DNA of 51,641 nt from Thermoanaerobaculia bacterium (GTDB taxonomy: Bacteria; Acidobacteriota; Thermoanaerobaculia; Gp7-AA8): contig JADGNY010000035.1 in the NCBI GenBank assembly GCA_017883235.1, positions 1-51,641 on the forward strand. The letters are read 5' to 3'. Both the position numbers and the translations under genes were made by a program. Every line of letters begins with the position of its first letter. The first letter of the stretch is position 1. Positions 19,161 to 39,204 of the stretch are shown in pieces. Below the pieces are notes generated by a model that was not told where the DNA came from, searched no databases, and was given only the letters and a program-made list of their open reading frames with translations.

Positions 19161-19170
19161 GGCTGTCTCC

Positions 19171-19601: not shown

Positions 19602-21236
19602 TCAGAACCTCACGACCTGCGTTGCCATTCCGATGGCCTCGGTGGTGGCGTCGCGAACGGCGACGACGACGCGATCCCGATCGCCTTTGCGGACCTTGAT
19701 GGCATTGCGATAGACGAGGATACCGTTCAGATCGGGAGTTCCCGACTTGAAGCCCGGGGTCAGCGAAAAAGTCGATGCCACCAGATTCTTGCCTGTCTCG
19801 CCGAAGACGGAAATGTAGACGACGACCTTCGCACCAACACCAATCCTGCCGGGCAAAAACTGAAGGTTTCGGAATGGCACCTTCACTTCGATCGGCAGCG
19901 TGATGACGTCACGGTTGGTCTGCGGTGTCCCAAACGCCAGTGTCACCGGCAGATCGTTGGGCTGCATCGCCGCTGCGGTTGGCGAGGTCATCGCCCGGGC
20001 GAGCTGAGTTGAGGTCGGACTGCTGCTGTAGCCGTTCCGGTATTCGAGCGAGAAATCGCCCTTCTGCTTCAGGCGCACGCTGATCGCGTGGTATTTGCCG
20101 TCATCCCGATGTGCCGGCGAGTATCCGAGCGAGTAGAAGGTCGATGACGCCGTATCGAACTCCTGCACGGAACGAGCGGGGTCATTGCTCCCCACGAAAC
20201 GTCCGCCGGTCTCTTTGGCGAGCCAGAACACCGCCGAGTTGTTGGTCGACGGGGCGACGTCGCCCGATACGTCACCCGGAGCATCGAGTCCCTGAACGTT
20301 CCAGATGTAGAAGCTTACGCCGGAGGAGTTCGCCTCCTGCACGATCGATTGACGAAGAGTCTGGACGTACTTCCGGGTCTCCCACATGCTGCCGGCGCCC
20401 GGCCCAAAGCCACGGGTTGCAACCCCGACGCCTCCTGGTGATTCATCGACCAACAGCGGATCCGTAAATCCGGGATCGCCCGTCAGAAGAAGGATGATCT
20501 TGCGTCCCGAGGTGCTGGCGAAGCCACGGACGGCATCGAGATAGGCCGGCACGATGAACTTCACAGCGATGGACTGTTCGGCATCCGACGACGACGCCGC
20601 GTGCTCCAGCCGTTGTGCGTAGTCGCCATCGAAGGCTGACCAGCCCGCTTTCTGGACGTCGGGAGACGACGACAGTCCAGCCTCCCGCGTGGCCTCGAAG
20701 GTTGTTGCCCCCTCCCGCCTCGTTCCAATCTTGCGGATGATCTCCAGCGCTTCGTGAATGGCGTTCTTGTCCGAAGTCAGCGGCAACACGAGCGTGATGC
20801 CTCGTCCGATGACGCCGATCGACCATTCGTAGTCGCCGTGAAAGCGATCGGTGATCATGGCCTCGAGGTTCTTCAGAGCGAGATCGCGTTGGTGACGGGT
20901 CGTATGGCCGTTGTCGACGAGGACGAGAACCTTGCGCCGGAAGCGAGGATCGGGCGGTTCGACCGGCACAGAGGGAGTAGCCGCCGTCGTCGCCACCGGC
21001 ACGCTCGTCCGCGTCTCCTCGGAAGCATAGAAATTCGTGATGGTCTGACGCCGGCCGTCTTCGAAGATCTCAAAGTCGTCTCGCGTCAGGTTGGGCACCG
21101 GTTTGCCTTTCGACGTGACCGTGACGTCGACATTGACGATGCGGACGTCGATCGTTTCCGAGACCTGCGCGGCCAGCGTGGTCGCACAGAGTAATGATGT
21201 CGCTGCGATGAGACCTTTCATGAGGAGACCTTTCAT
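19602..21236 (-). CDS. Secreted VWFA-related (TIGR03436-type) protein
   Basis: 544 residues with a signal peptide (LIAATSLLCATTLAAQ). Then come the family N-terminus (VRIVNVDVTVTSKGKPVPNL, TRDDFEIFEDGRRQTITNF) and a von Willebrand A-like domain from about residue 100 to 330 (VLVLVDNGHTT, GRKIILLLTGDPG). The MIDAS Asp is Asp108, but the usual DxSxS is DNGHT. The C-terminal part (YHAISVRLKQKGDFSLEYRN, VAVRDATTEAIGMATQVVRF) is the family's beta-sandwich-like end. Function unknown; these proteins are known from Acidobacteriota. The ATG overlaps the stop of the next VWFA gene (ATGA); an internal ATG at 21221 is also possible. Confidence 0.88.
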   Translation of the reverse strand: MKGLLMKGLIAATSLLCATTLAAQVSETIDVRIVNVDVTVTSKGKPVPNLTRDDFEIFEDGRRQTITNFYASEETRTSVPVATTAATPSVPVEPPDPRFRRKVLVLVDNGHTTRHQRDLALKNLEAMITDRFHGDYEWSIGVIGRGITLVLPLTSDKNAIHEALEIIRKIGTRREGATTFEATREAGLSSSPDVQKAGWSAFDGDYAQRLEHAASSSDAEQSIAVKFIVPAYLDAVRGFASTSGRKIILLLTGDPGFTDPLLVDESPGGVGVATRGFGPGAGSMWETRKYVQTLRQSIVQEANSSGVSFYIWNVQGLDAPGDVSGDVAPSTNNSAVFWLAKETGGRFVGSNDPARSVQEFDTASSTFYSLGYSPAHRDDGKYHAISVRLKQKGDFSLEYRNGYSSSPTSTQLARAMTSPTAAAMQPNDLPVTLAFGTPQTNRDVITLPIEVKVPFRNLQFLPGRIGVGAKVVVYISVFGETGKNLVASTFSLTPGFKSGTPDLNGILVYRNAIKVRKGDRDRVVVAVRDATTEAIGMATQVVRF

Positions 21237-22732
21237 TGGCCGATTTTAATCCGCTGCTTGACGACGCCGACGGCGTCGGTCAGTTGATCGTGGATGGCCA
21301 CGACGATGGTGTGTGCGGTGCCGGGGGTTAATCGAACGAGAGCCGTATGCGTCAGCTCTCCGTGGTTGGTCGGTTCGTCGCGAGGAGCATGAGCCCTGGT
21401 GGCGAAAGACTGCACACCAAGCGTCTTTCCATCTCCGTCGAAGACCGAGATGAACAGGGTGACACGGGCCTCATTGCCTGAGCGGGTGGGCACGAACTGC
21501 AGGAACCTCAGCGGGACCGTGATCGCGACCGGCAGGAGCAGAACGCCATCCTTCTCTTTTTGAGCTTCGCTCGTCCTGACCGTCAGCGGAATCGACGACG
21601 CCTGCATCGTCGCCGCATGCGGTGTGGCGAGAGTCCGCGCCAACTGCACTCCGATGGGCAGCGCGCCATAGCCGTCGCGGTACTGCAGATCGTACGAGCC
21701 GGGTCCTTTCAGGCGAACCGTGATGCGGTGGTACTTGTTGTCTTCCGGATGACTGGGGTGATAGGCCATCGAATAGAAATTCGAGGTCAGCTCCTCGAAC
21801 TTGCGAAAAGACAGTTCCGGGGAATTGCCGGCGAGCAAGCCGCCGCCGGTCTCGCGTCCCGTCCAGTAAAGCGCGCTGGCCACGGGGCCTGAGCTCAATC
21901 CTTCCGGATCGATGATGTAGAAGCTCACGTGGTCCTCATTGGCTTCGTGGATCAGCTCATCACGGAATGTCATCAGCTTCCGCTTGGGACCGCGGCCCAT
22001 GATGGCGCCGATATCCGCGTGGTTGATCACCTCGCCGAGACTGCTCGACAGCATGAGGACGATCTTCTTCCCTTCGCTGCCGGCAAATGCGTGCATGGCG
22101 TCGAGCAGAGCGCGGAACGAGAGGACGGAATAGGTCGGATCGTTTCCTGCATCGCGGAAATCGGCATACGGCATGCGGATATCGAGACTCACGGGCGGCT
22201 CACCGGCGGAGGTCGGCCACCTGCCGTCGTGGCGCAGGGCCTCGAGAGCGGCATGAATCCGCGCTTTGTCCGAGGTGAGCGGCAGGATGACTCTCATCTC
22301 CATCGCGGCAATGGCGATCGACCAGTCGTATTCGCCACTCGTGAAGCGGTCGTCGATGAACTGCTCCAGTTTTTCGAGTGTGCGATTGCGGTTGATCTTG
22401 GAGGTATGGACGTAGTCGACGACGACCAGCACCTTTCGCCGGAAACGCTCATCGACGACGGGCCGCGCCCCAGGCGTTGGCGTCGTGACGTCACCGGTGT
22501 TGGCCGCCACGGCCGGAGTGTTCTCGACCGCATAGAAGTTCGTGATCGTCTGCGGCACACCATCTTCGAGCACCTCGAAGTCGTCGCGTGTCAGACCGCG
22601 CACCAGGTGGCTCCGGGAGGTCACGGTCACATCGACATTGACCAGCGTGACGTCGATCTTCTCAGTGAGATCCTGGCTGTACGCGGCGGCAGCGATGAGG
22701 ATGAAGAGCGAAGCGATGATCGACGCGCGCAT
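21233..22732 (-). CDS. Secreted VWFA-related (TIGR03436-type) protein
   Basis: 499 residues starting MRASIIASLFILIAAAAYSQ (signal peptide). The open frame extends further upstream, but that part overlaps a remnant of another gene. The N-terminal domain is VTLVNVDVTVTSRSHLVRGL then TRDDFEVLEDG; the VWA-like region has VVVDYVHTSKINRNRTLEKL and KIVLMLSSSLGEV. It is very close to the gene at 30002-31513: QLARTLATPHAATMQASSIP is identical in both. So these two are recent duplicates, now on either side of the receptor/phosphatase genes. Translationally coupled to the following VWFA gene. Confidence 0.88.
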   Translation of the reverse strand: MRASIIASLFILIAAAAYSQDLTEKIDVTLVNVDVTVTSRSHLVRGLTRDDFEVLEDGVPQTITNFYAVENTPAVAANTGDVTTPTPGARPVVDERFRRKVLVVVDYVHTSKINRNRTLEKLEQFIDDRFTSGEYDWSIAIAAMEMRVILPLTSDKARIHAALEALRHDGRWPTSAGEPPVSLDIRMPYADFRDAGNDPTYSVLSFRALLDAMHAFAGSEGKKIVLMLSSSLGEVINHADIGAIMGRGPKRKLMTFRDELIHEANEDHVSFYIIDPEGLSSGPVASALYWTGRETGGGLLAGNSPELSFRKFEELTSNFYSMAYHPSHPEDNKYHRITVRLKGPGSYDLQYRDGYGALPIGVQLARTLATPHAATMQASSIPLTVRTSEAQKEKDGVLLLPVAITVPLRFLQFVPTRSGNEARVTLFISVFDGDGKTLGVQSFATRAHAPRDEPTNHGELTHTALVRLTPGTAHTIVVAIHDQLTDAVGVVKQRIKIGQ

Positions 22733-22745
22733 CAGGATCGCTGTG

Positions 22746-22918
22746 CTAGAAACGCACGATCTCCGACTTGATGCCGACGGCGTCTGTGACCTGATCGTGG
22801 ACGGCCACCACGATGCGATACGGCGTGCCCTTGCGCAACCGAAGGGCATGCTGCTCGACGAAATCGCCTTTGCTCTCCGAGCCGCTCTTTGCGTGTGCTT
22901 CGCGCATTGTGCGGAACG
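22746..22918 (-). pseudogene. C-terminal remnant of a sixth VWFA-related gene
   Basis: The minus strand reads TMREAHAKSGSESKGDFVEQ, then ALRLRKGTPYRIVVAVHDQV, TDAVGIKSEIVRF and a TAG stop (22746-22748). It lines up directly with the last 55 residues of the intact neighbour at 22954-24594 (GDFVDSHELLVKPGASYRVV, TDAIGIASQNIRF). No start or upstream part is present, so it is left from unequal recombination or deletion of a tandem copy. Confidence 0.85.
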
Positions 22919-22953
22919 TTCAGCAAACATCAGATGACGACGCATCAATCTCC

Positions 22954-24594
22954 CTAAAAACGAATGTTCTGTGAGGCGATCCCGATGGCATCGGTGACCT
23001 GATCATGGACGCCGACGACGACGCGATACGAAGCGCCAGGCTTGACCAGCAACTCGTGACTGTCGACGAAATCGCCGTCGGATTCCGTTCCGGTGGCGGC
23101 GCGCGCTTCCCGGGTGTAATGCGTTCCCGTGATTTCATGACCCCGTTCGTCGAAGACGTCAAAGAAGAGATCGACCCGCGCCACGGACACATTGCCGGTC
23201 GGGATGAACTGGAGGTTCTTTGCAGCTACCGTCGCGTGCAGGGGAACGACGACACCACCATCACGGGGCGAGCTCGCGCCCGTCACGAGGCTGACCGGGA
23301 TCGACAACCGTTGCATCGAGGTACCGAGCGGCGATTGCATGGCCCTGATCAACTGCACCGTCACCGGAACGCTCGAATAACCGGTGCGGTACTGCAATTG
23401 GTATCCGGAGCGTTTCAGCTCCACTTTGATGGTGTGGTACTTGCCGTCGTCGCCGTGAACCGGCTTGTAGGCAAGCGAGTAGAAACTGGATGAGGCGCGG
23501 TCGAACTCCTCGAGTGAGTGCTCGACTGAGTTGCCCGGCATGAGACGGCCGCCGGTCTCACGAGCGACCCAGTACATCGAGGCAAACTCGCTCGATCCGC
23601 CCGGCCCGAAGCCCTGGCCGGTATGGGATGACGCGTCGCTGTCCGACGCAAGACCTTCGCTGTTGACGATGTAAAAACTCACATTCGACGCATTCGCCTC
23701 GTGGATGAGGAGATTGCGCAACCGCGTCATCCGAGCCATTCCGGAGGCGACTGCAGCGGCGCCGCTGACCGACGAACGCCCGCTGGCGGCAAGGGGGCTG
23801 ATGCCGCTATCCAGTCCGAGGCTGCCCGTGACGAGAAGGATGATCTTCCGGCCAGGGGCACCTGCGAACGAGCGGATCGCGTCGCGAATGGCCTCAATCG
23901 TCGCTGCCGCATCGGCCTCGGTTTGAAAACGCGCACCAAGCTCAGCCATCGTCGACATCGTGTCGTCCGACAAAGTGTCAGACCTTCCGGTCAGACCGGA
24001 CGGTCCCGGGGCATCGAAAGAGCTCACCGTGGCCAGCCGGGCGACATCCTCTTCGGCTCGCCGCGGGTTGGCGACGATTCTGCGGATCGCGGCAATCGTC
24101 TCGTGAAGTTTCTCCTTATCAGAGGTCAGCGGGAGCATCAGCCGCGCTTTGTCGGTGACGAGAGCGACCGACCAGTCGTAGGTTCCACCGGTGAAACGGT
24201 CGTCGACGAAGCGCTCCAGCGCAGCGAGGGCGCGGTCGCGGTTGTACATCGTGACGTGCCTGTTGTCGACGATCACGAGCACCTTTCTGCGGAAGCGCTC
24301 GTCGGTGGGATCGGCGAGGACGGAATCGGGAGTTGAGGGCGTCGCGGTCGCCGCGGTCACTTTTCGGATTGGACTCGCAGGCGGCTCGACGGCGTAGAAG
24401 TTCGAAATCGGCTGAGCAACACCGTCTTCGAAAATCCTGAAATCGTCGCGCGTCAGTCCGCGTGCGGGCGCGCCATGCGAGGTGACGGTTAGGTCCACGT
24501 TGACGAGTGATACGTCGATTCTTTCGGTGAGCGATTGTGCGAACAAGGAGCTCGTCGCAACAAGAAGGACCGCAAGAACGAGGGTCTTTGGCAT
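22954..24594 (-). CDS. Secreted VWFA-related (TIGR03436-type) protein
   Basis: 546 residues from the ATG at 24594 (MPKTLVLAVLLVATSSLFAQ, signal peptide), with GAGGAGAGAG just upstream as ribosome binding site. Family N-terminus: VSLVNVDLTVTSHGAPARGL, TRDDFRIFEDG. VWA-like region: VLVIVDNRHVTMYNRDRALA, IILLVTGSLGLDSG. C-terminus: YRVVVGVHDQVTDAIGIASQ. The MIDAS serines are again missing. Head gene of the minus-strand VWFA run; the terminator at 24742-24776 separates it from the upstream TonB receptor. Confidence 0.88.
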   Translation of the reverse strand: MPKTLVLAVLLVATSSLFAQSLTERIDVSLVNVDLTVTSHGAPARGLTRDDFRIFEDGVAQPISNFYAVEPPASPIRKVTAATATPSTPDSVLADPTDERFRRKVLVIVDNRHVTMYNRDRALAALERFVDDRFTGGTYDWSVALVTDKARLMLPLTSDKEKLHETIAAIRRIVANPRRAEEDVARLATVSSFDAPGPSGLTGRSDTLSDDTMSTMAELGARFQTEADAAATIEAIRDAIRSFAGAPGRKIILLVTGSLGLDSGISPLAASGRSSVSGAAAVASGMARMTRLRNLLIHEANASNVSFYIVNSEGLASDSDASSHTGQGFGPGGSSEFASMYWVARETGGRLMPGNSVEHSLEEFDRASSSFYSLAYKPVHGDDGKYHTIKVELKRSGYQLQYRTGYSSVPVTVQLIRAMQSPLGTSMQRLSIPVSLVTGASSPRDGGVVVPLHATVAAKNLQFIPTGNVSVARVDLFFDVFDERGHEITGTHYTREARAATGTESDGDFVDSHELLVKPGASYRVVVGVHDQVTDAIGIASQNIRF

Positions 24595-24741
24595 GGGGGC
24601 TCTCTCCTCTTCCGTGTTCGTTGCGCTGCCGTACACGTGCCACGGCGGAAAGGATATTCCCGCTTTTGCTTCAACAGGTTACGCAAGAGCCGGGACCGGC
24701 GGCGGCCTTCGACACTCCTCCGGCGGGGACAAGCTGTCCCG

Positions 24742-24776
24742 AAAACACTACGGGGCGCCTCGCGGCGCCCCGTAGT
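24742..24776 (-). terminator. Rho-independent terminator of the TonB receptor gene
   Basis: ACTACGGGGCGCC and its complement GGCGCCCCGTAGT form a stem of at least 12 bp with a short CGCG loop region. On the minus strand it is followed by GTTTTC, 22 bases after the stop at 24798. Confidence 0.8.
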
Positions 24777-24797
24777 CAACAAACGATGAGTTGCGGA

Positions 24798-27800: not shown

Positions 27801-27853
27801 TGTGTACCTCCTGTTAGGACCGTTTGTGATTTCCGTGAATATAACGCAAAGGA

Positions 27854-29893
27854 TTACCGACGTAACTGCGGGGACAATCTTCCGAGGAGCGTCCGCGCCG
27901 CCTCACGCTGCGGCGCGTACTCGCGAGATGGAGGAAGGCGAGCCAGAAGGCGATGCAGTTCCGCCGCCGCGGCCCCGGAATCGCCTGCGACCTGCAAGGC
28001 GATGGCGCGGTTGAGCTGCGCCTCGTAGTAGTCCGGCCCGATCTGCAGCGCGGCGTCGAAATATGGGATCGCTTCCCGCGCCCGCCCGCCCGCGACGAGG
28101 AGTGCTCCCAGTCCGTTCAAGGGATCGGCGTAGCGCGGCGCGAGCTCGATCGCTTTCCGGTATGCCTCCGACGCTTCAGTATCCCGGTTCATGGCGCGGA
28201 GGGCGTTGCCGAGGTTGTTGTACGCGCGCGCGTTGCGTGAATCGCCGGCGATGGTGGCCCTGAATTCCCGTTCCGCCGCGGTCATGTCTCCCGCTTCCGC
28301 CAGCGCCGCTCCTCGGATGTTGTGGATCTCCGGACGGCCCGGATCCCGTTTCGCCGCCTCGGCGAGTGCGGCCGCACCCTCTTTTCCATTGCCGCTCTCT
28401 TCGAGCGCGGCGGCGAGGTTGTACCAGGCGTCGGCGTCGTTCGGTGCCAGCGCGACGGCCTGACGATAGAGAGCGATGGCGCGAGGGACGTCCCCACTCT
28501 GACGTAGCGCGCGTGCGAGGGTCTCGCGGAAGACGTGATTCGACGGATCGTCGCGCACGATCTGCTCGAGCGGTGCGACTGCGTCGCGCGGGCGGCCGGC
28601 GTTGATCGTGGCCGTCGCTTCTTCAAAGGTCCGAAAGAGAGACGACACTGTTTTGGGATCCCGCTTCGTCCCGCCGGTTGATCCAGCCGGCGCGACGTAT
28701 CCGAGGCTGGCCAGCTTCGCGCGCGTCTCCGCATCGACCGTCGCTGGTGATGAGACGACCGCCGTGGCGCGAAGCTGATCGAGCCGGCTGCTCAGATCGC
28801 GGTATGCGCGCCGCTCGTTCACCAACACGTTTACGGTCTCTCCCGGATCATGTTGCAGGTCGTAGAGCTCAGGGGAAGGCCCGGAGATTACTTTCGTAGC
28901 CGACAGCCGCACCGACGCCAATTCGCTCCACCCGAACGTGGCCGGATATTGCGTCTCGGCGTAGACGGGCGCCGCCGTGGGCTCGTGTCCGGCGCGAAGA
29001 TCAGAAGAGAGGTCGCGCCCGTCCGCCGGCTTCGGGAACGGAACGCCGGCCAGGGCGGCAACCGTCGGCGCGAGATCAACGGTGCTGACAGGTGTACGGA
29101 TCACGCGAGGATCGAGCGAGGGAACGGACACGATCATGGGAACATGCAGGGTTGGCTCGTACAACAGCAGACCGTGAGTCAGTTCGCCATGCTCGCCGAG
29201 CGCTTCACCGTGATCCCCGACGACCACGACGATCGTGTTGCCGCGATCGACCGCGGCAAGGAGTCGCGCAACCTGGGCATCGACGTAGGCAACTTCGCCA
29301 TCGTACGTTTGCGGGTAGGGCGGCGGCGGCGCGTAGGGCGCGTGAGCGTCGTACAGATGGACCCAGGCGAAGAAGGGCCGGGCGTGGCTCTGGCGCAGCC
29401 AGGCCAGGGCGCGGTCGACGACTTCGCCGCCCCGGCGCTCCGCTTCGAATGTACCGCTGCTTTCGCCGGCGTCGCGGACGATCTCGTCGTCATATCGGTC
29501 GAATCCGCGGTCGAGGCCGAAACGATGGTCGAGGATGAACGAGCCGACGAAGGCGCCGGTGCGGTAGCCGGCGCGACGGAACGTGGTCGCCAGTGTGTCG
29601 CAGTTCGCCGGGAAGGAACCGCTGCCGTTGTTGCGCAGACCGTGATGCAGCGGCAGCAAGCCCGAAAGCAGCGATGCGTGAGCCGGAAGTGTCAGGGGAA
29701 CAGGAGAGTCTGCCGATTCGAACTGGACTCCCTCCTTCGCAAGGCGGGCCAGTGTCGGAGCACCAGGGCCGATACGATCAGCGCGGAAGGTGTCGATCGA
29801 GATGAAGAGGACGCTGAGCGGTGGCGAAGGTGCCTTCGGACAGGCGATGACAAAGAGGGCACAGAGAAGAAGCGCGATGCGGCGACGGAGCAC
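27854..29893 (-). CDS. Sulfatase-like lipoprotein with TPR tail
   Basis: About 679 residues. From the GTG at 29893 the N-terminus (RRRIALLLCALFVIAC) is a lipoprotein signal with Cys18. Next is an alkaline-phosphatase/sulfatase fold: metal site VLFISIDTFRADRIG, VVVVGDHGEALGEHGELTHG, LYDLQHDPGETVN. At the place of the formylglycine motif C/S-x-P-x-R it has LTLPAH, so the modified Cys/Ser and Arg are absent and Thr may be the nucleophile. From about residue 425 there are five or six TPR units (DAWYNLAAALEESGNGKEGA, ARAYNNLGNALRAMNRDTEA, GDSGAAAAELHRLLARL). A GTG at 29908 is an alternative start. The substrate is unknown. Confidence 0.82.
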   Translation of the reverse strand: MLRRRIALLLCALFVIACPKAPSPPLSVLFISIDTFRADRIGPGAPTLARLAKEGVQFESADSPVPLTLPAHASLLSGLLPLHHGLRNNGSGSFPANCDTLATTFRRAGYRTGAFVGSFILDHRFGLDRGFDRYDDEIVRDAGESSGTFEAERRGGEVVDRALAWLRQSHARPFFAWVHLYDAHAPYAPPPPYPQTYDGEVAYVDAQVARLLAAVDRGNTIVVVVGDHGEALGEHGELTHGLLLYEPTLHVPMIVSVPSLDPRVIRTPVSTVDLAPTVAALAGVPFPKPADGRDLSSDLRAGHEPTAAPVYAETQYPATFGWSELASVRLSATKVISGPSPELYDLQHDPGETVNVLVNERRAYRDLSSRLDQLRATAVVSSPATVDAETRAKLASLGYVAPAGSTGGTKRDPKTVSSLFRTFEEATATINAGRPRDAVAPLEQIVRDDPSNHVFRETLARALRQSGDVPRAIALYRQAVALAPNDADAWYNLAAALEESGNGKEGAAALAEAAKRDPGRPEIHNIRGAALAEAGDMTAAEREFRATIAGDSRNARAYNNLGNALRAMNRDTEASEAYRKAIELAPRYADPLNGLGALLVAGGRAREAIPYFDAALQIGPDYYEAQLNRAIALQVAGDSGAAAAELHRLLARLPPSREYAPQREAARTLLGRLSPQLRR

Positions 29894-29969
29894 AGGGCCA
29901 TTCTGCACGATCGATCTGGAGATGGGTGCAGCAGTGATGCGACACGGAAAATCATTATTGAAGGCGCTC
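29888..29969. promoter_or_regulatory. Duplicated divergent control region, copy 1
   Basis: Shares GAGCAC, TTCTGCACG-TCGAT, ACGGAAAATC and ATTATTGAAGGCGCT, in order and at similar spacing, with 31679-31767. Copy 1 lies between the minus-strand sulfatase-like gene and the plus-strand VWFA gene. A promoter role is inferred from position; I could not fix -35 and -10 boxes. Confidence 0.5.
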
Positions 29970-30001
29970 TTAGCATCACAAAATGCATTACGATCGTCTA
30001 G

Positions 30002-31513
30002 ATGCTTGGAGGTCGCCTGAAGGTCGTTACACTCGTCTTCTTCGTCCTCGCTGTCTCCGCGCACGCTCAGGATCTCGTCGAGAAGATCGACGTCACTCGG
30101 GTCAACGTCGACGTCACGGTGACCTCGAGGAGCCACCCGGTCCGCGGACTGAGTCGCGACGACTTCGAAGTTCTCGAAGACGGGAAACTGCAGACGATCA
30201 CGAACTTCTACGCCGTTGAAAATGCCGCGACGGTAGAGGATAGTGAAGGCGTTGTGACCCCCGCGAGGCCGGTCGCTCCTGTTGTCGACAGCCGTTTCCG
30301 CCGGAAAGTGTTCGTCGTCGTCGACTACGTCCACACCACAAAGATCAATCGCAATCGGGCGCTCGAACAACTCGAGCAATTCATCGACGACCATTTCACT
30401 GCTGGCGAGTACGACTGGTCGATTGCCACCGCGGGCATGGACCTGCGCATCATTCTCCCGCTCACCTCGGACAAGGCACTCATCCACAGCGCCATCGAGG
30501 CCATGCGCCACGACGCGAGGTGGCAGGCCTCCGCCGAGGAGCAACCCGTGAGCCTCAATGTCCGACTCCCCTTCGACGATCCTGCGGTCGCCAAAGGAGA
30601 TCCCACATACATGATCCTGTCATTTCATGCCGTTCGCGACGCGGTGCGCGCCTTCGCAGGAACCGAAGGAAAGAAGGTCGTGCTTCTGCTGTCAGGCGGC
30701 CTCTCAGGCGGCTACAAAGGGTTGATCCATCAGGCTGACGTTGGCGCGATCCTCGGCTCGGACGCGCCACGGAAGTTGATGACGTTCCGGGATGAGCTCA
30801 TTCATGAAGCCAATGCGTCCAATCTCAACCTGTACGTCATCAACCCGGAAGGTTTGGACACCATCGAGATCAAAGGCGAGCTGTATTGGATGGGACACGA
30901 AACCGGAGGTAGTTTCTTCGCCGGTAACAATCCGGCGGTCTCGCTTCGGAGGTTCGATGAGCTCTCTTCCAACTTCTACTCGCTGGCGTATCGACCCAGC
31001 CATCCCGAAGACTACAGGTATCACCGACTCACGGTGCGTCTGAAGAACCCGGGATCGTACGAGCTCCAGTACCGCGATGGCTATGGCGCTCTGCCGATCC
31101 AGGCGCAACTGGCGCGAACCCTGGCGACGCCGCATGCGGCGACGATGCAGGCCTCGTCGATTCCGCTTACGTTCAAAACGGGAGTGGCGCGAGAGGGGAA
31201 GGACGCCGCGATGCTCCTGCCGGTGGCGATTACCGTCCCGCTTCGTTACCTGCAATTCGTGCCCGCGCGCACTGGCAGCGAAGCGCGCGTCTTCCTTTTC
31301 ATCTCCGTGTTCGACGAGGATGGAAAGACCCTGGGAGTGCAGAGTTTCGCAACCAGAGCGCATGCCCGCCACGATGAACCGACCAACCACGGAGAGCTGA
31401 CTCATACGGCTCTCATTCGATTGAACCCGGGAACCGTTCACACGATCGTCGTGGCGATTCACGACGAGATCACGGACGCTGTCGGTGTGTTGAAGCAACG
31501 CGTCGAGTTCTAG
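30002..31513 (+). CDS. Secreted VWFA-related (TIGR03436-type) protein
   Basis: 503 residues. Signal peptide VVTLVFFVLAVSAHAQ, then VTRVNVDVTVTSRSHPVRGL, SRDDFEVLEDGKLQTITNFY. The VWA-like part has VVVDYVHTTKINRNRALEQL and KVVLLLSGGLSGG. C-terminus VAIHDEITDAVGVLKQRVEF. It is the sister of the gene at 21233-22732, on the opposite strand. The ATG at 30002 directly follows TCTAG and has no ribosome binding site; GGAGG lies inside the first codons, so the true start is uncertain by a few residues. Confidence 0.87.
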   Translation: MLGGRLKVVTLVFFVLAVSAHAQDLVEKIDVTRVNVDVTVTSRSHPVRGLSRDDFEVLEDGKLQTITNFYAVENAATVEDSEGVVTPARPVAPVVDSRFRRKVFVVVDYVHTTKINRNRALEQLEQFIDDHFTAGEYDWSIATAGMDLRIILPLTSDKALIHSAIEAMRHDARWQASAEEQPVSLNVRLPFDDPAVAKGDPTYMILSFHAVRDAVRAFAGTEGKKVVLLLSGGLSGGYKGLIHQADVGAILGSDAPRKLMTFRDELIHEANASNLNLYVINPEGLDTIEIKGELYWMGHETGGSFFAGNNPAVSLRRFDELSSNFYSLAYRPSHPEDYRYHRLTVRLKNPGSYELQYRDGYGALPIQAQLARTLATPHAATMQASSIPLTFKTGVAREGKDAAMLLPVAITVPLRYLQFVPARTGSEARVFLFISVFDEDGKTLGVQSFATRAHARHDEPTNHGELTHTALIRLNPGTVHTIVVAIHDEITDAVGVLKQRVEF

Positions 31514-31678
31514 GGCTATCGATCTGGGTTTGAGTGCCAGTCGGCCAGCTATCCGTTCTAGCGTCGGGCGACCGTTCGTCTTGGGCCTGAGGCTCGTGAA
31601 GGGGCAGCCGGGCTATCTGGTTCCGTGATTTAGAAATGCGCTTGGGTTGAAATAATTATCAGGACGTCCGCACCGATC
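31514..31678. other. Intergenic stretch after the VWFA gene
   Basis: No open frame with a recognisable product, and no clear terminator after the VWFA stop. The following 31679-31767 is the second copy of the control region; from 31768 to 32006 there is a long leader before the TonB receptor, ending in TTAGGAGAAAG as ribosome binding site. Confidence 0.5.
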
Positions 31679-31767
31679 GAGCACCGCCCACTTCTGCACG
31701 GTCGATATTGGAAATCTGGGAAGTCATCAATGATACGAACGGAAAATCCGAATTATTGAAGGCGCTA
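31679..31767. promoter_or_regulatory. Duplicated divergent control region, copy 2
   Basis: About 89 bp similar to 29888-29969, with the order GAGCAC, CTTCTGCACGGTCGAT, ACGGAAAATCCG and AATTATTGAAGGCGCT kept. It precedes the second TonB receptor by about 240 bases. Shared control of the VWFA gene at 30002 and this receptor is a reasonable inference. Confidence 0.5.
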
Positions 31768-32006
31768 CCTCCCACCGGACGAGCCCGGCTTGCGCTAACT
31801 CTCTAAAAATACTACGCTCGCGGCGCCTCGGGCTTCGGCGAGCTTAGCGGCAGCGTGCATGCACGTTTCCCCAATCGCACCAGTCCGCAAAAGGTAGCGC
31901 TCGGTCAGCATTCAAGCAATCACAGGGGGTACGCCACCCCTCGAAGTGAATCAGGGTTCGAACGCAGTCAAACCGCAGTCCAAGAAGGGTTAGGAGAAAG
32001 AACGAA

Positions 32007-35000
32007 ATGCATTTACAAAAGTTTCGAGTTGCCACGCTGCTCGCGATGGTGCTCCTCGTCGCCGTCGGCGCGTATGCGCAGACCGGCCAGACGGGCGCCA
32101 TCGAGGGCACAGTCAAACAGGCAGGGACCGCTCTTCCCGGTGTGACCGTGGAGGTCCGCTCCTCAGCTCTTCAGGGAGTTCGGACCGGAGTGACGGATGG
32201 AGGCGGAAACTTCCGCTTCACCCTTCTTCCGACCGGCTACTACACCGTGACGGCTACGTTGTCCGGTTTCAACACGGTCACGCAGAACAGCGTCAAGGTC
32301 GAGCTGAACCACACGGTCTCGCTCGACGTTGTCATGAGTCCGTCTGCGTCGGCCACGATCACCGTGACCGGCGCCGCGCCGGTCGTCGACGTCACGTCGA
32401 ACGTGCAAGGCGCGAACATCACCTCCGAGACGATGCAGTCGCTTCCTCTCGGCCGCAATTTCGTGGCAGCGGCGCAGATCGCTCCGGGGACGAACGCTGA
32501 CGCGCGAGGAACGACGGTGTACGGTTCCTCAGGCCTCGAGAACTCGTATGTCATCGACGGTCTGAACACGACCGGCATCGGGTTCGGTGCACAGGTCAAG
32601 CTCGTGAACACCGACTTCATCAGTGAAGTGGAAGCGCTGACCGGCGGACTACCCGCCGAGTATGGCCGCATGACCGGTGGCGCGATCAACGCCGTCACCA
32701 AGAGCGGTTCGAACGAATTTCATGGCGACGTCTTCGGATACGACAGCGGCGGCAGCCTCAATTCTGACAACACCAACGCCAGCAAGCTCCCGACTTCGTC
32801 CACCACGGTCGCAAGCATCAATCGCCAGTACGATGCAGGCGTCGATCTCGGTGGCTACATCATGAAGGATCGTCTCTGGTTCTTCGGCGCGTATGACCGC
32901 GTCAACGAGACGGACCTGAGCACACGAATCAACAGCCCGCTCCTCGTTTCGGGTTTCCCGACGATCGGGGTCGGAACGGGACTCACGAGCAAACTGGGCC
33001 GCGACCTCTACGCCGGCAAACTCAGCCTGGCGCTCACCTCGAGCCACCTCATCAATCTGTCGGTCCTCGGCGATCCCTCATCGAACGCAGGCGCCATCTT
33101 CGCGATCGCCGGCGAGCCCAGCACCTACACCGGCGTGAACAAAATCGGCAGCAACGACTTCGTCGGCCGCTACTCCGGCGTCTTCGGAACCAACTGGAAC
33201 GTCAACGCCACCGCCGGCCGCCATCATGAGCTGAACACGCTCACCGGTCCGGGCTCGACGATTCCTCTGATCATCGACCGCACCCAGGTTCCTTCCGTCC
33301 GCTTCGGCGGATTCGGACTCTTTACGAACCAGGACTACAAGCGCGACACCGGCAAGCTCGACGTCAGCGCCTTCTTCGGAAGCCACCAGTTCAAAGTCGG
33401 TGGCGACCTCGAAGACCAGACCGCCGTCAATGCCAACACCGAGAGCGGTGGCGCGTCGCTTCAGAAGCGTTGCAGCGTGGCGGTCGTGAACAATGTCTGC
33501 CCGGCGAACGGGCTGGTCTATTACACGCACGAAGCTTACCTGGACGACAGGCATGCCGGCTTCAACGCCAACGACCCGACGACGTTCGCGGCCGCCCTCG
33601 TCAATCCGCTCGCGTCCGCACCCAAGGACAAGAACAAATCGCTGTACATCCAGGATTCGTGGAAGGTGCTCACCAACCTCACCCTCAATCTCGGCTACCG
33701 CTGGGAAGAGCAGCAGGTCGGCAGCCGCGACGGGACGAACGCGATCGATCTGAAGCATGACACCGCACCGCGCATCGGCGCCATCTGGGATCCGATGAAC
33801 AACGGCCGCAGCAAGGTCTATGCGAACTACGGCCGCTTCTATGAAGCGATCCCGATGGACATCAACCTCCGCGCCTTCGGCGGAGAACTGACGATCGACG
33901 TCAACAATCAGGACCCAAAGGCGACGGACTTCACCCCGGATCCGCTCACGCCGGCGTTGAAGGGAACGGCCCGCTACCGCCTCCTCGGCGGCTCCGCTCT
34001 TCTCGAGCCGGTCGACCCGAACCTCAAGGGACAGTACATCGACGAGTACCTCCTCGGCGGCGACTATGAAATCGCGTCGAACCTCGCCGTTGGCATCAAG
34101 TACACCTACCGGAATCTCGGCAACGTGATCGAGGACTTCCTCATCGGCAGCACCGGTGAGTATCTGATTGCTAATCCAGGAGTCGGTACCGGTGCCACCG
34201 GCACCACGTTCCTCGGTGACGTCGTCCAGTACGGCAAGGCGCAACGCAAGTACAAGGGCATCGAGGTTCACGCTGAGAAGCGCTTCAGCAACAACTACCA
34301 GTTCTTCACCAGCTACGTCTGGTCGCAGCTTAAGGGCAACTACGACGGTACGTTCCAGGCGTCGACGGGACAGGCTGATCCGAACATCAACTCAGCGTTC
34401 GACTACGCCGACTTCCTCGTCAACAACAACGGCTTCCTGAGCAACGACCGCACGCACGTCGTGAAGTTTTATGGCTCCTACACCTTATCGAACGGCTTCG
34501 CTAAAGGCCTCGACGTCGGTGTCGGTGCACACTGGGAGTCCGGCGTTCCTCTGACCGCTCAGGGGTATTCCGTTACCTATCGCAACTTCGAGTACTACCT
34601 GACCACGCGCGGAGCGCTCGGTCGTGGTCCGTCGGACTATGAAGCCGACATCCATGCCGGCTTCCCGATCCCGGTCGGTGGCTCGCATGTGAGCCTTCTG
34701 CTCGACGTGTTCAACATCTTCAACCGGCAGTCCGCCACGAATCTCGATCAGCGTTACAACCAGTCGGGCGATCCAGCGTGCACCGGCATTCCGTACAAGC
34801 CGCCAGTAAATAATGTGCCTCAGCCGGCGTCGCCGAGCAACCTCTGCAACACTGACGGTGGTCTTCTGAATATCGCTGGAACGACCAAGGTCTTCCTCCC
34901 GCTGACAAACCTAACCCCTTCGAATCCCTCGTTCCTCAAAGCAGGCACGACCTTCACGGGCGTTCGCAGCATTCGGTTCGGAGCTCGCTGGACGTTCTAA
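32007..35000 (+). CDS. Oar-like TonB-dependent outer-membrane receptor
   Basis: 997 residues. Signal peptide (LLAMVLLVAVGAYAQ), carboxypeptidase-regulatory-like domain at about 30-110 (GAIEGTVKQAGTALPGVTVE, LLPTGYYTVTATLSGF), plug region (LPLGRNFVAAAQIAPGT, SYVIDGLNTTGIGFG, EYGRMTGGAINAVTKSGSNE) and a long barrel ending RSIRFGARWTF. Compared with the receptor at 24798 the plug has more of the typical DGLN motif. Start ATG 32007 with AGGAGAAAG eight bases upstream. Substrate unknown. A strong terminator follows. Confidence 0.92.
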   Translation: MHLQKFRVATLLAMVLLVAVGAYAQTGQTGAIEGTVKQAGTALPGVTVEVRSSALQGVRTGVTDGGGNFRFTLLPTGYYTVTATLSGFNTVTQNSVKVELNHTVSLDVVMSPSASATITVTGAAPVVDVTSNVQGANITSETMQSLPLGRNFVAAAQIAPGTNADARGTTVYGSSGLENSYVIDGLNTTGIGFGAQVKLVNTDFISEVEALTGGLPAEYGRMTGGAINAVTKSGSNEFHGDVFGYDSGGSLNSDNTNASKLPTSSTTVASINRQYDAGVDLGGYIMKDRLWFFGAYDRVNETDLSTRINSPLLVSGFPTIGVGTGLTSKLGRDLYAGKLSLALTSSHLINLSVLGDPSSNAGAIFAIAGEPSTYTGVNKIGSNDFVGRYSGVFGTNWNVNATAGRHHELNTLTGPGSTIPLIIDRTQVPSVRFGGFGLFTNQDYKRDTGKLDVSAFFGSHQFKVGGDLEDQTAVNANTESGGASLQKRCSVAVVNNVCPANGLVYYTHEAYLDDRHAGFNANDPTTFAAALVNPLASAPKDKNKSLYIQDSWKVLTNLTLNLGYRWEEQQVGSRDGTNAIDLKHDTAPRIGAIWDPMNNGRSKVYANYGRFYEAIPMDINLRAFGGELTIDVNNQDPKATDFTPDPLTPALKGTARYRLLGGSALLEPVDPNLKGQYIDEYLLGGDYEIASNLAVGIKYTYRNLGNVIEDFLIGSTGEYLIANPGVGTGATGTTFLGDVVQYGKAQRKYKGIEVHAEKRFSNNYQFFTSYVWSQLKGNYDGTFQASTGQADPNINSAFDYADFLVNNNGFLSNDRTHVVKFYGSYTLSNGFAKGLDVGVGAHWESGVPLTAQGYSVTYRNFEYYLTTRGALGRGPSDYEADIHAGFPIPVGGSHVSLLLDVFNIFNRQSATNLDQRYNQSGDPACTGIPYKPPVNNVPQPASPSNLCNTDGGLLNIAGTTKVFLPLTNLTPSNPSFLKAGTTFTGVRSIRFGARWTF

Positions 35001-35025
35001 GCAATCCGTTTCATCGTTGTATCCT

Positions 35026-35055
35026 GAGGGCCCCGTTCGCGGGGCCCTCTTTTTT
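35026..35055 (+). terminator. Rho-independent terminator abutting the next start codon
   Basis: GAGGGCCCCG, loop TTCG and CGGGGCCCTC make a perfect 10-bp stem followed by six T. It ends one base before the ATG at 35056 of the next gene. Confidence 0.9.
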
Positions 35056-37434
35056 ATGCGCTCCCGATCTCTCCTCATCCTCATAGCAGCCGCAGCCGCC
35101 GGCGCACTCATCGCCCTCTTCGTCAGGACGCAGCCTTCAGGATGTGCCTCGGTGTTTCGACGCGCCGGCTCGATCGCCGCCCGCCGCCAGCGCCTTTACC
35201 TGCGTCCGCTCCCCTCCGGCGAGCGATGTTGCGTCACGCTCGTCGCGGGCCGCCTCGCATTCGACTCTTCCCTGATTGCCACGACCGCCTCTGCTGATGA
35301 AGTGCCGCTCCGAATCCATTTCACCTATGACCTGCCGGATACGATTCCGACGGATTGGCCGCAAGGCGACTGGTGCAGTTCGCTCCGAGCTCGTGTTCAG
35401 GCAGGCGTCGATCAGGCGTCGCGCCGCGACTCGGCTGATGCCATCATGGCTGACCGGCGCGCCGCTGGAGACCGCATCGCTGCAGCCGTCGAGCGCGAAC
35501 TGCAACAGGCCGGCGTCCGCGTTGACACGGTCTCGGCACGCCTCGATCTTCCGGCCGGCTTCGAACGGCTGCGCATCGTGCCTGAAGTTGCAAAACTGAC
35601 GCACAACACACCACCGGTCATCTTCGTCGGCCTCGACGGCGCCGACTGGCAACTCCTCGACGACTACATGGCCAGTGGATCGATGCCGAACCTGAAGCAA
35701 CTCGTCGCCGGCGGCGCGGGAGGCGTCCTGGAGACCGACTATCCACCACTCTCCCCACTGGTCTGGACGACGATGATGACGGGCGTTGGTCCGCTCGATC
35801 ATGCCATTCTCGACTTCACCCGCTTCAACCCTTACACGAAGGAGAAGGAGCCGATCACGAGCGACGAGCGCCGCGTGCCCGCCATCTGGAACATGCTGAC
35901 GTTCGCAGGAAAGCAGACCGCTGTCCTCGGGCTCTGGGCCACGTACGCAGCTGAGCCAGTTCACGGACTGAATGTCTCGGACCGCCTCTTCACCTTCCTC
36001 TATTCCGACGTCGACAAACCGGCTGGCATCGTCTGGCCCCCGTCGCGGCAGTCATGGTCCGAACACACTCTGGCCGACGCGGAAGCGACCACCGATGTTC
36101 GCCGGATGCGCCAATACCTGCCGGCGCTCACCGACGACGAATTCGCAGCGCTTTCGAAACGACAGAATCCGTACGCCGACCCGCCCGCCGCCCTGCGACG
36201 CATCCTCGTCGAGACCGAGGTCTACCGTCGCCTCGGCGAGGCATACCTCGATTCACGAAGCACCTTGCCCGACCTGACAATCGTCTACCTTCAGGGAACG
36301 GACACCGTCGGTCACGTTTTTGCTCCCTTCGCGCCGCCCAAGCAGCCTCAGGTCTCACAGCCCGACTATGACCTCTACAGCGGCGTGCCGGCACGCTATT
36401 TTCACGAGATCGACGATCTTCTCGGCTTCTATGCGGCGCTGGCGGAACAGAAGGGCGCAACGCTCATGATCGCCTCCGATCACGGCTTCTTCTGGCGTGA
36501 CGGACGACCGACTCAGATCTCGAGCACCGCAACCGCGACCGCCGCAAAGTGGCATCGTAAAGAAGGGATCTATCTCATCAAAGGTGCCGGCATCGCCGCG
36601 GCGCCGGGACACCCACTGCGGGGGAGCGTGCGGCAGGTTTGCGCCACCCTTCTCGCGCTCACGGGAATGCCGGCCGTTGCCGGATCGCAACCGCCACTGC
36701 CTGGTGCGCCATCCGGCGCGGCATCATTCGTCTACGGACAGCACTTTGTTCGCGCTGCGTCGCCACCACCCCCAGCCAGCGGCCGCGCCGCCTCCGAGGA
36801 GATCGCCAAGCTGCGCGCACTCGGCTACATCGGCTCGAAGGAGTCCGCGCGCTCCGCGGCCGGTTCCAGCAGCGACACGAAGACCGCCGGCGCATTCAAC
36901 AACGAGGGACTCATTCTCAGGAACGAGCATCGTACCGACGACGCCGTCAAGGCGTTCGATCGCGCGCTGACCATCGATCCACGGTACGCGTCGGCAATGT
37001 GGAACGAGAGCGAGACCTTGTTCAACGCCAATCGCGACCTCGATCGCGCCGACAGCCTCCTCGTCGCAGCGCTTCAGAACGGGCTCACCGACGCCATCAC
37101 CTTCGTCGTCTCACGCTCGATCGCCTACGAGCGACAACACCGAGGGGATCGCAGTCTCAAACTGCTCAACGCTGCCGTCGGCGTCGCACCGAACGAATCC
37201 GAGCTGCACATGTTTCGCGGTCGCTACCGGATGGAGGCACACGACTGCAGCGGCGCACTCGAGGACTTTCGTTCAGCAGAGGCTGAGCGCCCGAACGTGG
37301 CCCTCGGATACACGTCCGCGGCTCTGGCGCAAATGTGTCTCGGTGACGACGCTGCAGCGCGAAGCAGCATCGAGCAGTCGCTGCAACTCGATCCGAACCA
37401 GCCGGTGTTGCGGAAGATGCTGGAACAGCGGTAG
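35056..37434 (+). CDS. Membrane-anchored alkaline-phosphatase-superfamily protein with TPR tail
   Basis: 792 residues. An N-terminal anchor (LLILIAAAAAGALIALFV) is followed at about 40-175 by a segment resembling an SPFH/band-7 domain (VPLRIHFTYDLPD, AAAVERELQQAGVRVDTVSA). The catalytic domain has Asp194 in VGLDGADW, Thr238 in PLSPLVWTTMMTG as likely nucleophile, LQGTDTVGHVFAPF, and ASDHGFFW. It is a type I phosphodiesterase/pyrophosphatase-like fold. From about residue 600 there are TPR repeats (NNEGLILRNEHRTDDAVKAF, GYTSAALAQMCLGDDAAARS). The start codon directly follows the T-tract of a terminator and has no ribosome binding site, so expression depends on read-through or an internal start. 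Confidence 0.82.
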   Translation: MRSRSLLILIAAAAAGALIALFVRTQPSGCASVFRRAGSIAARRQRLYLRPLPSGERCCVTLVAGRLAFDSSLIATTASADEVPLRIHFTYDLPDTIPTDWPQGDWCSSLRARVQAGVDQASRRDSADAIMADRRAAGDRIAAAVERELQQAGVRVDTVSARLDLPAGFERLRIVPEVAKLTHNTPPVIFVGLDGADWQLLDDYMASGSMPNLKQLVAGGAGGVLETDYPPLSPLVWTTMMTGVGPLDHAILDFTRFNPYTKEKEPITSDERRVPAIWNMLTFAGKQTAVLGLWATYAAEPVHGLNVSDRLFTFLYSDVDKPAGIVWPPSRQSWSEHTLADAEATTDVRRMRQYLPALTDDEFAALSKRQNPYADPPAALRRILVETEVYRRLGEAYLDSRSTLPDLTIVYLQGTDTVGHVFAPFAPPKQPQVSQPDYDLYSGVPARYFHEIDDLLGFYAALAEQKGATLMIASDHGFFWRDGRPTQISSTATATAAKWHRKEGIYLIKGAGIAAAPGHPLRGSVRQVCATLLALTGMPAVAGSQPPLPGAPSGAASFVYGQHFVRAASPPPPASGRAASEEIAKLRALGYIGSKESARSAAGSSSDTKTAGAFNNEGLILRNEHRTDDAVKAFDRALTIDPRYASAMWNESETLFNANRDLDRADSLLVAALQNGLTDAITFVVSRSIAYERQHRGDRSLKLLNAAVGVAPNESELHMFRGRYRMEAHDCSGALEDFRSAEAERPNVALGYTSAALAQMCLGDDAAARSSIEQSLQLDPNQPVLRKMLEQR

Positions 37435-37542
37435 GGAACGAAGCGCGATCGAGCCGCCTGGAACGGCGCTCCGTCCTGACGGGCGCGCAGAACTACCACA
37501 GGACGTCTCCTGCGCCATCTTGCGCTGGACTGTGTCGACGCC

Positions 37543-39204
37543 CTACAGACTCACGTCCTTGACTGAGCTGCCCATCTCGTTCGACAGATCATCGCGAAGC
37601 GTAATGGCCAGAGTGAACTCTCCCTTCTTCAGGCGTACGTTCAGGCTGTAGCGGAAGGGGTCAGCCGCGGCATCGTGCTGCGCTTTCGAGAGCGAGACCT
37701 CCTGCAGCTGGTGGTGAAATCCGACGATCTGTCCGTTGTGATCGAAGATCGAGATGTAGATGTGGACCCGTCCGACGAAGCCGCCGTCCCGCGGGAGCAT
37801 GGTGACGCGTGCGATCGGCAGTACGGCGGTCAGCGGAACGACGATCCTCTGCTCGGACGTTCTGGGATGCCCGAGGTTCACCTGAACGGGCAGCACTCCG
37901 GTCGGCACATCGAAGGTCATGCGTGCGTGAAGCATCTGTTCGAGCCGATCGTCCGAAGTGAGATCGTAGTAACCGGCACGGTTGGCAACGTGAACTCCCG
38001 GGCGCTTCACGTGCACTTTGATGTGGTGATAGTGGCGGTCGCCGCTGTGATCGGGTGAATAGCCCAAGGAGTAGAAATTCTCGGTCTGGGCCTCGATGAC
38101 ACCGAATGAATGCCCGACATCAGCGGAGGGCAGATAAACGCCGCCAGTGCTGAGTGCGATCGAGAGCGGCACTGAATCGACGTTAGTGGTATCGATGGGG
38201 TCGTTGCCGCCGCCGCGTTGAAAGAAGTTGGGCGATGACATGTCGATCCCGGAGGAAGCGTTTTCGACGTCATGTTGCGGCGCTTGCATACCGCGGGCCC
38301 TGGCGTTCACGATGTGAATCGTGAAATTCGCGGCGTTGGCTTCCTGCGAGATGGCGTCGACGATTTTCGCCTTCTCGATCTGCATGGCGCGCATGGCCTG
38401 GTCGTTCTCTTTCTGGTACGCCGAGAAGGCCGTGTTGTCCTCCATCCCGCCGGTGAGGAGGATCATGTACTTCTTCCCTTCGTCAGCCGTGTGGGCGCGC
38501 GCCACCTCAACCACGGCGCGAGCTGTGTTCTGAAGCGAGGCAATGCTCTGAAACGTCTGCTCGCGCGACTGAAACCGCACCGTCTGCGAGAAATCGTAGG
38601 CGTCCGTCTGCATGTCCAGTTGTTTGCGCGTCCGGTCAGAGAGGATCGAGCGATCGATGTCATGCTCGCCCGTGTACGTCGGCATGTGCTCGATCTTGCC
38701 GATCGCAGCATCGATCAGCGCCCTCTGGTTCGTAAACGGTTGCACGATCTGAAGCGTGTGCCCGATCGCGGCCACCGCCCAGTCGTAGTCGCCGGCGTAA
38801 ACGGTGTTGAGCTGCTTCTCGAAAGCCCGCAACGCCGAGTTCCGCTCGAGGTTGCCGATAAAATTGTTGTCGACGAGCAGGATGATCTTCCGCCGCACTC
38901 TCTCAGGCGGCGCCACCGGGGTGCCGGTTGCGACGGCCGTCGGCGCCGAATCCCGCATCAGCGCTTTCTCGATCACGGAGAAGTTCGTGACCTTCACCAG
39001 CTTGCCGTCTTCGAAGATCTCGAAGTCGTCCCTGCCCAGGTCCATGACAGGCTTGCCATGGCGATCGGTCACCGTCACATCGACGTTGACCACGTTGACG
39101 TCAACGTGCGCGGTGAGCGGAGGCAGCGGCCCGAAGTTTTGTCCGAAGATTGACGGGGCGACGATAAAGGCGAACGACACAACCGCGGTCAGCAACCGGC
39201 GCAT
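37543..39204 (-). CDS. Secreted VWFA-related (TIGR03436-type) protein, divergent
   Basis: 553 residues. Signal peptide LLTAVVSFAFIVAPSIFGQ, then VNVVNVDVTVTDRHGKPVMD, GRDDFEIFEDGKLVKVTNFS. VWA-like part: KIILLVDNNFIGNLERNSAL, KYMILLTGGMEDNTAF. The C-terminal part (RVTMLPRDGGFVGRVHIYIS) ends SSVKDVSL and is less like the other four copies. The MIDAS pattern reads DNNFI. Function unknown. It is convergent with the phosphatase/TPR gene; the 108-bp gap between them shows no clear terminator. Confidence 0.86.
   Translation of the reverse strand: MRRLLTAVVSFAFIVAPSIFGQNFGPLPPLTAHVDVNVVNVDVTVTDRHGKPVMDLGRDDFEIFEDGKLVKVTNFSVIEKALMRDSAPTAVATGTPVAPPERVRRKIILLVDNNFIGNLERNSALRAFEKQLNTVYAGDYDWAVAAIGHTLQIVQPFTNQRALIDAAIGKIEHMPTYTGEHDIDRSILSDRTRKQLDMQTDAYDFSQTVRFQSREQTFQSIASLQNTARAVVEVARAHTADEGKKYMILLTGGMEDNTAFSAYQKENDQAMRAMQIEKAKIVDAISQEANAANFTIHIVNARARGMQAPQHDVENASSGIDMSSPNFFQRGGGNDPIDTTNVDSVPLSIALSTGGVYLPSADVGHSFGVIEAQTENFYSLGYSPDHSGDRHYHHIKVHVKRPGVHVANRAGYYDLTSDDRLEQMLHARMTFDVPTGVLPVQVNLGHPRTSEQRIVVPLTAVLPIARVTMLPRDGGFVGRVHIYISIFDHNGQIVGFHHQLQEVSLSKAQHDAAADPFRYSLNVRLKKGEFTLAITLRDDLSNEMGSSVKDVSL

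Follow-up and report, generated by a model that had tools for sequence, protein, structure and literature searches.

In the SusC/SusD (RagA/RagB) systems of Bacteroidetes, the gene for a TonB-dependent receptor stands beside that for a TPR-containing lipoprotein, and SusC has an N-terminal domain of the CarboxypepD_reg type. SusD and RagB are TPR-built, according to the available portions of two papers (PMC2954216, PMC11817032). For Myxococcus xanthus, the available part of another paper describes the Oar receptor, together with TonB, as needed for secretion of PopC, and mentions there no linked AlkP/TPR partner (PMC6434023). For Acidobacteriota, a paper on Solibacter paralogues (PMC3174227) lists vWA and TonB plug paralogues, with no mention of Oar, sulfatase or tetratricopeptide in its available part.

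Here we analyze a block of nine genes in a 51,641-nucleotide stretch of DNA (the window) from a member of the Thermoanaerobaculia (Acidobacteriota), the host assembly of which is a 6.9 Mb genome in 246 contigs. The block lies between a carboxyl transferase gene and rpmA/rplU, and encodes two Oar-like TonB-dependent receptors (O1 and O2), two exported proteins in which an AlkP-superfamily domain carries a TPR tail (S1 and D2), and five exported VWFA proteins (V1 to V5). It resembles SusC/SusD in that S1, a putative lipoprotein with TPRs, is encoded next to O1, and in the N-terminal CarboxypepD_reg-type domain of the receptors; it differs in having an AlkP enzyme with a TPR tail as the partner and in the additional VWFA genes. 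We give a probability of roughly 0.4 to the reading that the block represents two divergent copies of a unit composed of an Oar-like outer-membrane transporter and a dedicated exported AlkP/TPR partner, with VWFA proteins added. The recurrent pairing of these genes points to an unstudied outer-membrane system. No description of the Oar, AlkP/TPR and VWFA gene set was found in the open-licence literature, an earlier account elsewhere being possible, nor was any role of these families in Acidobacteriota found described there; the statistically strong, recurring partnership is a first concrete context for them.

Linkage of Oar-like receptor genes with AlkP/TPR genes

We searched 60 genomes of one class, the host genome included. 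All 60 contained S1-like, Oar-like and VWFA matches (the S1-like matches being weak in about five), and 41 contained D2-like matches. Linkage was scored in 61 stretches around S1-like genes that scored at least 450 in a purpose-built model, a set that omits the window and any stretch picked by D2 or VWFA matches. Fifty-eight of these came from the better-scoring part of 758 S1-like matches in the 60 genomes and were chosen before the positions of Oar genes were known; the other three came from the host genome (L022, L039 and L040), and their Oar neighbours were known beforehand. An Oar-like gene was present within 5 kb in 48 of the 61 stretches, compared to 9.4 expected under a generous baseline in which every first-look Oar candidate was counted as an Oar. 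Removal of the host-genome stretches left 46 of 58, and outside the window's family the figure was 18 of 22. The linked Oar was on the strand of the S1-like gene in 40 of the 48 cases, and each of the eight families sampled contributed at least one Oar-linked stretch.

Linkage of VWFA genes was weaker. A VWFA gene was found within 5 kb in 10 of the 61 stretches (on the same strand in nine), and a hand count gave 13 VWFA genes near S1-like genes, compared to an expectation of at least 3.2. Oar and VWFA genes were both within 5 kb in eight stretches, and all three gene types occurred together in five families. By comparison, 20 arbitrary control stretches (278.5 kb, from the window's family only) held one Oar, one S1-like gene and no VWFA gene. 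A sequence-only reading of the window had proposed co-occurrence of the three gene types in other genomes as a check on their relationship: the association of Oar with AlkP/TPR genes is clearly non-random, and that of VWFA genes is so more weakly. Most of the host-genome VWFA genes whose surroundings were examined are away from Oar and AlkP genes.

D2-like genes showed a similar association. At least 23 of 68, the window's own included, had an Oar gene within 5 kb, always on the same strand and with the Oar upstream in 19; a convergent VWFA gene lay within 5 kb of at least eight of the 68 (the count is based on 68 of 75 rows, the seven omitted being further fragments of genes among the 68). 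The order Oar, D2, convergent VWFA, as in O2-D2-V5, was also found in three genomes of another family (G021, G027 and G054). Clustering of the neighbours at 65 loci gave S1-like genes at 65, Oar at 51, VWFA at 13 and a CarboxypepD-TPR gene at 11, the next families being flank genes present at no more than 10 loci. These data establish Oar plus AlkP/TPR as the core of the arrangement, with VWFA as an optional component.

The CarboxypepD-TPR gene encodes a small exported protein with CarboxypepD_reg and TPR domains, the N-terminal domain type being common with the Oar receptors. It was present in 11 of the 61 stretches (examples are L039, 11333-12394; L103, 5708-6766; and L142, 5208-6173), and some of these loci adjoin a gene read as RNase III.

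We also compared the histories of the partners. The pairwise distances of Oar receptors and of their AlkP/TPR neighbours were correlated (r = 0.745 for 47 pairs; none of 2000 shuffles was as high, the shuffle maximum being 0.149), and the neighbouring pairs share a common history. In the Oar tree, linked receptors were spread over several clades, the linkage label being mildly clustered (7 changes, compared to 10.5 after shuffling, with 2 of 500 shuffles as low); note that 10 of the 11 unlinked rows in this tree came from the host genome, which biases the sampling.

Composition of the block and variation at its site

The genes of the block and its flanks are as follows (coordinates within the window).

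18906..19488 (approximate), minus strand: conserved flank, rpmA (L27, from Pfam) and an adjoining gene read as rplU (L21), the latter named from sequence and position
19602..21236, minus strand: V1, exported VWFA protein (TIGR03436), 544 aa, with an N-terminal hydrophobic segment ending in LAAQ
21233..22732, minus strand: V2, exported VWFA protein, 499 aa, with a 4-bp overlap with V1 and 69% identity to V4
22954..24594, minus strand: V3, exported VWFA protein, 546 aa, from its TIGR03436 score
24798..27800, minus strand: O1, Oar-like TonB-dependent receptor, 1000 aa, with CarboxypepD_reg domain and outer-membrane barrel
27854..29908, minus strand: S1, AlkP-superfamily (sulfatase/NPP-like) protein with TPR tail, 684 aa; putative lipoprotein, lipobox FVIAC, Thr at the nucleophile position
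29909..30001: the 93 bp that separate the divergent genes S1 and V4; the minus strand has one sigma-70-like match (29981-29954; a consensus match only)
30002..31513, plus strand: V4, exported VWFA protein, 503 aa, from its TIGR03436 score
32007..35000, plus strand: O2, Oar-like TonB-dependent receptor, 997 aa, from its Pfam domains
35056..37434, plus strand: D2, 792 aa, with an N-terminal hydrophobic anchor, an SPFH-like region (weak evidence), an AlkP (Phosphodiest) domain and a TPR tail
37543..39204, minus strand: V5, exported VWFA protein, 553 aa, whose gene converges with D2, as is also seen in further genomes
39309..40832, minus strand: conserved flank, carboxyl transferase (PF01039)

The sequence-only reading had counted five VWFA proteins, two Oar-like receptors and two exported phosphatase-fold proteins with TPRs, and all nine are present at these coordinates. 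S1-O1-V3-V2-V1 run leftward and V4-O2-D2 run divergently from them. Several start sites were revised by comparison with relatives: for S1 the likely start is a GTG at 29908 rather than the open reading frame start of 30544, and the likely starts of V2, V3 and D2 are at 22732, 24594 and 35056, respectively. O1 and O2 both matched PF13620, PF25183 and the PF00593 barrel above the Pfam cut-offs, so that each combines the N-terminal domain (PF13620/PF13715) and TonB-dependent transporter barrel by which Oar-type receptors are recognized; M. xanthus Oar likewise has an N-terminal PF13620 domain and such an outer-membrane barrel. The PF07715 plug scored 20.1 bits in O2, under the cut-off of 23.9, and was not matched in O1.

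V2 and V4 are closely related paralogues within the block. In contrast, O1 and O2 share 35% identity across approximately 300 N-terminal residues, and the likeness of S1 to D2 lies mainly in the TPR part. A recent inverted duplication of the whole block is ruled out by this divergence: the O1/O2 and S1/D2 pairs are old, and the symmetrical look of the block does not stem from one recent duplication.

Other genomes of the window's family carry different versions of the locus (abbreviated here as AlkP for S1-like, PDE for D2-like and V for VWFA genes). At the same site, G001 has V-PDE-Oar / AlkP-Oar-V-V, G012 has AlkP-Oar-Oar and a small exported protein, and G016 has AlkP-Oar alone, with no VWFA gene. 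G004 has Oar-PDE and a small exported protein. In G002, one contig carries PDE-Oar / AlkP-Oar-V, and two further VWFA genes lie directly after the carboxyltransferase gene at the end of a second contig, suggesting that its locus was split by assembly into two contigs. AlkP-Oar is the smallest form observed at this site, to which a second Oar-D2 pair and the VWFA genes appear to have been added. The earlier view that co-location of the three gene types suggests one system is partly supported: for Oar with AlkP/TPR, and more weakly for VWFA, which is optional and absent from the G016 form.

The three expanded families might have gathered, with no functional link, at a tolerant insertion site between the carboxyltransferase gene and rplU. 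Such an origin is compatible with the variation in gene content of the site among genomes and with the local duplication evident in V2 and V4, but it does not account for why the same partners are paired elsewhere, and in additional families, far more often than expected, and we consider it very unlikely.

Predicted activities of the AlkP/TPR and VWFA proteins

S1 matched PF00884, PF01663 and TPR profiles, and D2 matched PF01663 and TPR profiles. Both proteins resemble nucleotide pyrophosphatase/phosphodiesterases (NPPs) and PF00884 sulfatases in these AlkP-superfamily matches, and differ from both in the TPR tail, which is preceded by an LGY-type linker. Among 97 S1-like proteins, Thr occupied the nucleophile position in all 95 that could be read there, 95 of the 96 readable for the first metal-binding Asp had kept it, and all 97 had kept the Asp-His of the DHG motif. 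The N-terminus of S1 aligned, Thr on Thr, with 2gsn, a structurally characterized nucleotide pyrophosphatase of Xanthomonas in which this Thr is the nucleophile. S1 itself contains the Thr and the Asp/His metal ligands that make up the NPP/AlkP phosphoesterase signature. The Thr at the nucleophile position, where PF00884 sulfatases have the Cys or Ser that becomes formylglycine, speaks against a formylglycine sulfatase, and a simple sulfatase reading of S1 was rejected. From knowledge of the family, the Thr makes a phosphoesterase or phosphotransferase a reasonable prediction for the S1-like proteins, and the 'modifying enzyme' proposed earlier for the AlkP/TPR proteins is a reasonable, if tentative, description. 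Judged from sequence, the AlkP site appears intact, with its Thr in place, and the proteins carry apparent export signals.

The D2-like genes fall into two kinds. Linked members kept the Asp/His set in seven of seven and had a Ser or a Thr close to where the nucleophile is expected, and the DHG motif was likewise kept in the seven of this locus type. Unlinked D2 paralogues (L011, 8743-11184, and L079-L092) had lost the Asp of the DHG motif in 15 of 15 cases and the His in 7 of 15, with the TPRs kept, and an unlinked paralogue is likely to be a pseudo-enzyme. The DHG pattern ties a seemingly intact AlkP site to the Oar/VWFA neighbourhood.

The two enzymes appear to be held at the membrane by different means. 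S1 has a lipobox, as did 61 of the 97 S1-like proteins by a crude pattern (seven were unread); the D2 N-terminus has a hydrophobic anchor and not a lipobox. A Band_7 (SPFH) domain was matched weakly in 9 of 21 D2 relatives at E <= 0.05 (best 3.3e-5) and reached 22.7 bits in L011, compared to a cut-off of 23.6; the corresponding fragment of D2 itself gave no match. An AlphaFold2 model of D2 placed strands and then helices in the N-terminal region, mostly at predicted local distance difference test scores (pLDDT) of 67-88. The model, built from three sequences, was poor in the AlkP part (mean pLDDT 52.5), and the fold matches listed were all to TPR proteins.

The enzymes could alternatively serve envelope modification, acting as phosphotransferases or phosphodiesterases on lipid or lipopolysaccharide, with the Oar gene a neighbour through shared regulation only. 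The Thr and the AlkP family membership are in keeping with this, as is the recurrent position next to housekeeping genes such as rplU and those read as RNase III and Era, which suggests a core envelope role. However, the Oar pairing has persisted at many sites through repeated duplication, for which shared regulation alone is a poor explanation, and we regard this alternative as improbable.

All five VWFA proteins of the block scored above the curated cut-off of 81.25 bits for the acidobacterial VWFA family TIGR03436 (152, 132, 160, 134 and 170 bits), and none matched a Pfam family at E <= 0.01. The host genome has 26 VWFA genes above the TIGR03436 cut-off, the five on the window's contig forming the largest cluster. 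V5 was predicted to have a VWA fold (Z approximately 17 over 171 residues at an rmsd of 2.8 Å; mean pLDDT 62). The motif of the metal-ion-dependent adhesion site (MIDAS) is DxSxS. When the alignment was read by eye, this motif was found in 0 of 14 members of the window's VWFA clade, the first Asp being invariant in all 14. The clade differs from the TIGR03436 family in lacking the MIDAS serines and in lying mostly beside Oar/AlkP genes.

These data bear on the surface adhesion or capture complex, with VWFA proteins as adhesins, that the sequence-only reading had put forward. The predicted VWA fold of V5 and the export signals of the VWFA proteins agree with it, but with DxSxS missing in 14 of 14 an adhesion of the MIDAS type has no support in the window's clade and is not favoured, and the VWFA proteins are an optional part of the locus. 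An adhesion complex appears very doubtful to us.

A tree of 46 VWFA proteins placed 24 of the 25 AlkP-linked members in two clades, and the linkage label required 8 changes, compared to 15.4 after shuffling, with none of 500 shuffles as low (V1 was scored as unlinked in this analysis, being more than 5 kb from S1). One clade is the window's own; the other belongs to Oar-AlkP-AlkP loci of several families, many of which also encode a CarboxypepD/TPR protein. VWFA genes were recruited to Oar/AlkP units at least twice, separately. A search of 20 genomes, the host included and G013-G017 outside it, recovered 18 strong members of the window's clade (>570 bits), of which 13 adjoin Oar/AlkP genes of this locus type, two more are probably linked to such genes (G002 C35), and three lie elsewhere (G000 C87 and G001 C240).

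Candidate roles of the receptor and its partner

If the block does encode transporters with dedicated enzyme partners, the Oar barrel, energized by TonB, would move a cargo across the outer membrane. The partner may dock by its TPR tail on the receptor or on the cargo, in the manner of the TPR-built SusD lid on SusC, with S1 as the lipoprotein form of the partner and D2 as a membrane-anchored form. Docking would keep the AlkP domain, which is metal-dependent, at the channel to cut or transfer a phosphoester on the cargo. The VWFA proteins might be exported accessories, binding or scaffolding in function, that adjust the choice of cargo or partner. As to direction, we slightly favour import with processing over secretion.

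Secretion or surface display is the main rival to this reading. Here the Oar would export protein, the VWFA proteins or AlkP lipoproteins would be its cargo or be displayed, and the TPR tails would act as periplasmic cargo chaperones. There is a precedent in the role of Oar and TonB in PopC secretion by M. xanthus, to the extent that the available part of that paper describes it (PMC6434023). The window's VWFA proteins have simple export signals and, by eye, no lipobox, and VWFA genes adjoin Oar/AlkP units in two separate clades. In addition, no catabolic enzyme such as a nutrient locus would be expected to have was recognized among the 20 gene families present in at least six loci, as read from sequence and scanned in part. 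On the other hand, G016 retains the same-site form without a VWFA gene, and most of the host-genome VWFA genes whose surroundings were examined are unlinked to an Oar. Secretion is a real possibility, although in our judgement an unlikely one. The scan of the 20 families, in which no glycoside hydrolase was recognized either, also leaves a nutrient-utilization locus of the polysaccharide utilization locus (PUL) type unsupported.

A potential concern with the transporter and AlkP/TPR reading is whether the linkage extends beyond the genes that were selected, and several observations weigh against it. The 61 stretches hold high-scoring S1-like genes, and lower scorers may be less linked; our confidence was lowered slightly because of this selection. 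Thirteen of the 61 stretches had no Oar in reach, some of them being short contigs. The weaker host-genome sulfatase matches C95 and C202 were left out of the counts, and C95, which is below the score threshold, had no Oar in its stretch. In G022, from another family of the same class, at least two of nine S1-like genes were near an Oar, and in 16 genomes of other classes at least 14 of 78 were. The linkage thus weakens in G022 and outside the class: the partnership is clear among S1-like genes close to the window's type and less so among more distant ones. The correlation of Oar and partner distances is also expected of genes that duplicate together without interacting. For D2, the difference in the DHG motif between linked and unlinked genes follows what look like two clades and may reflect a single event, and an anchored D2 would be located at the inner membrane and not where a lid is placed. 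Finally, the SusD family was absent from the Pfam matches of S1 and D2 at E <= 0.01; the system is accordingly not a member of SusC/SusD, and any likeness would be one of function rather than sequence.

The transporter with its AlkP/TPR partner could be generalized to a system widespread in Acidobacteriota, in which a TPR-tailed phosphoesterase takes the role of SusD, and a TonB channel with an enzyme lid cuts phosphoesters from the macromolecules that cross it. Paralogues would then differ in cargo specificity, and VWFA proteins would be accessory subunits recruited repeatedly. We offer this generalization as speculative and consider it unlikely in its full extent. The pairing with Oar offers a reason for the existence of AlkP-TPR fusions, and suggests a new type of partner for TonB-dependent transporters.

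Three further features were noted in the window. A Ser/Thr kinase with TPR repeats is encoded at 42796-44850, and its family, part of the flank of the block's site, was present in 9 of the 65 clustered loci. A tandem repeat array with units of 21 bp and 63 bp occupies 12583-12808 (approximately 11 copies of the 21-bp unit). About six tandem copies of a 41-bp unit (96% match), containing palindromes, lie at 47228-47480 between an EF-G-like gene and a large sigma-54 activator gene.

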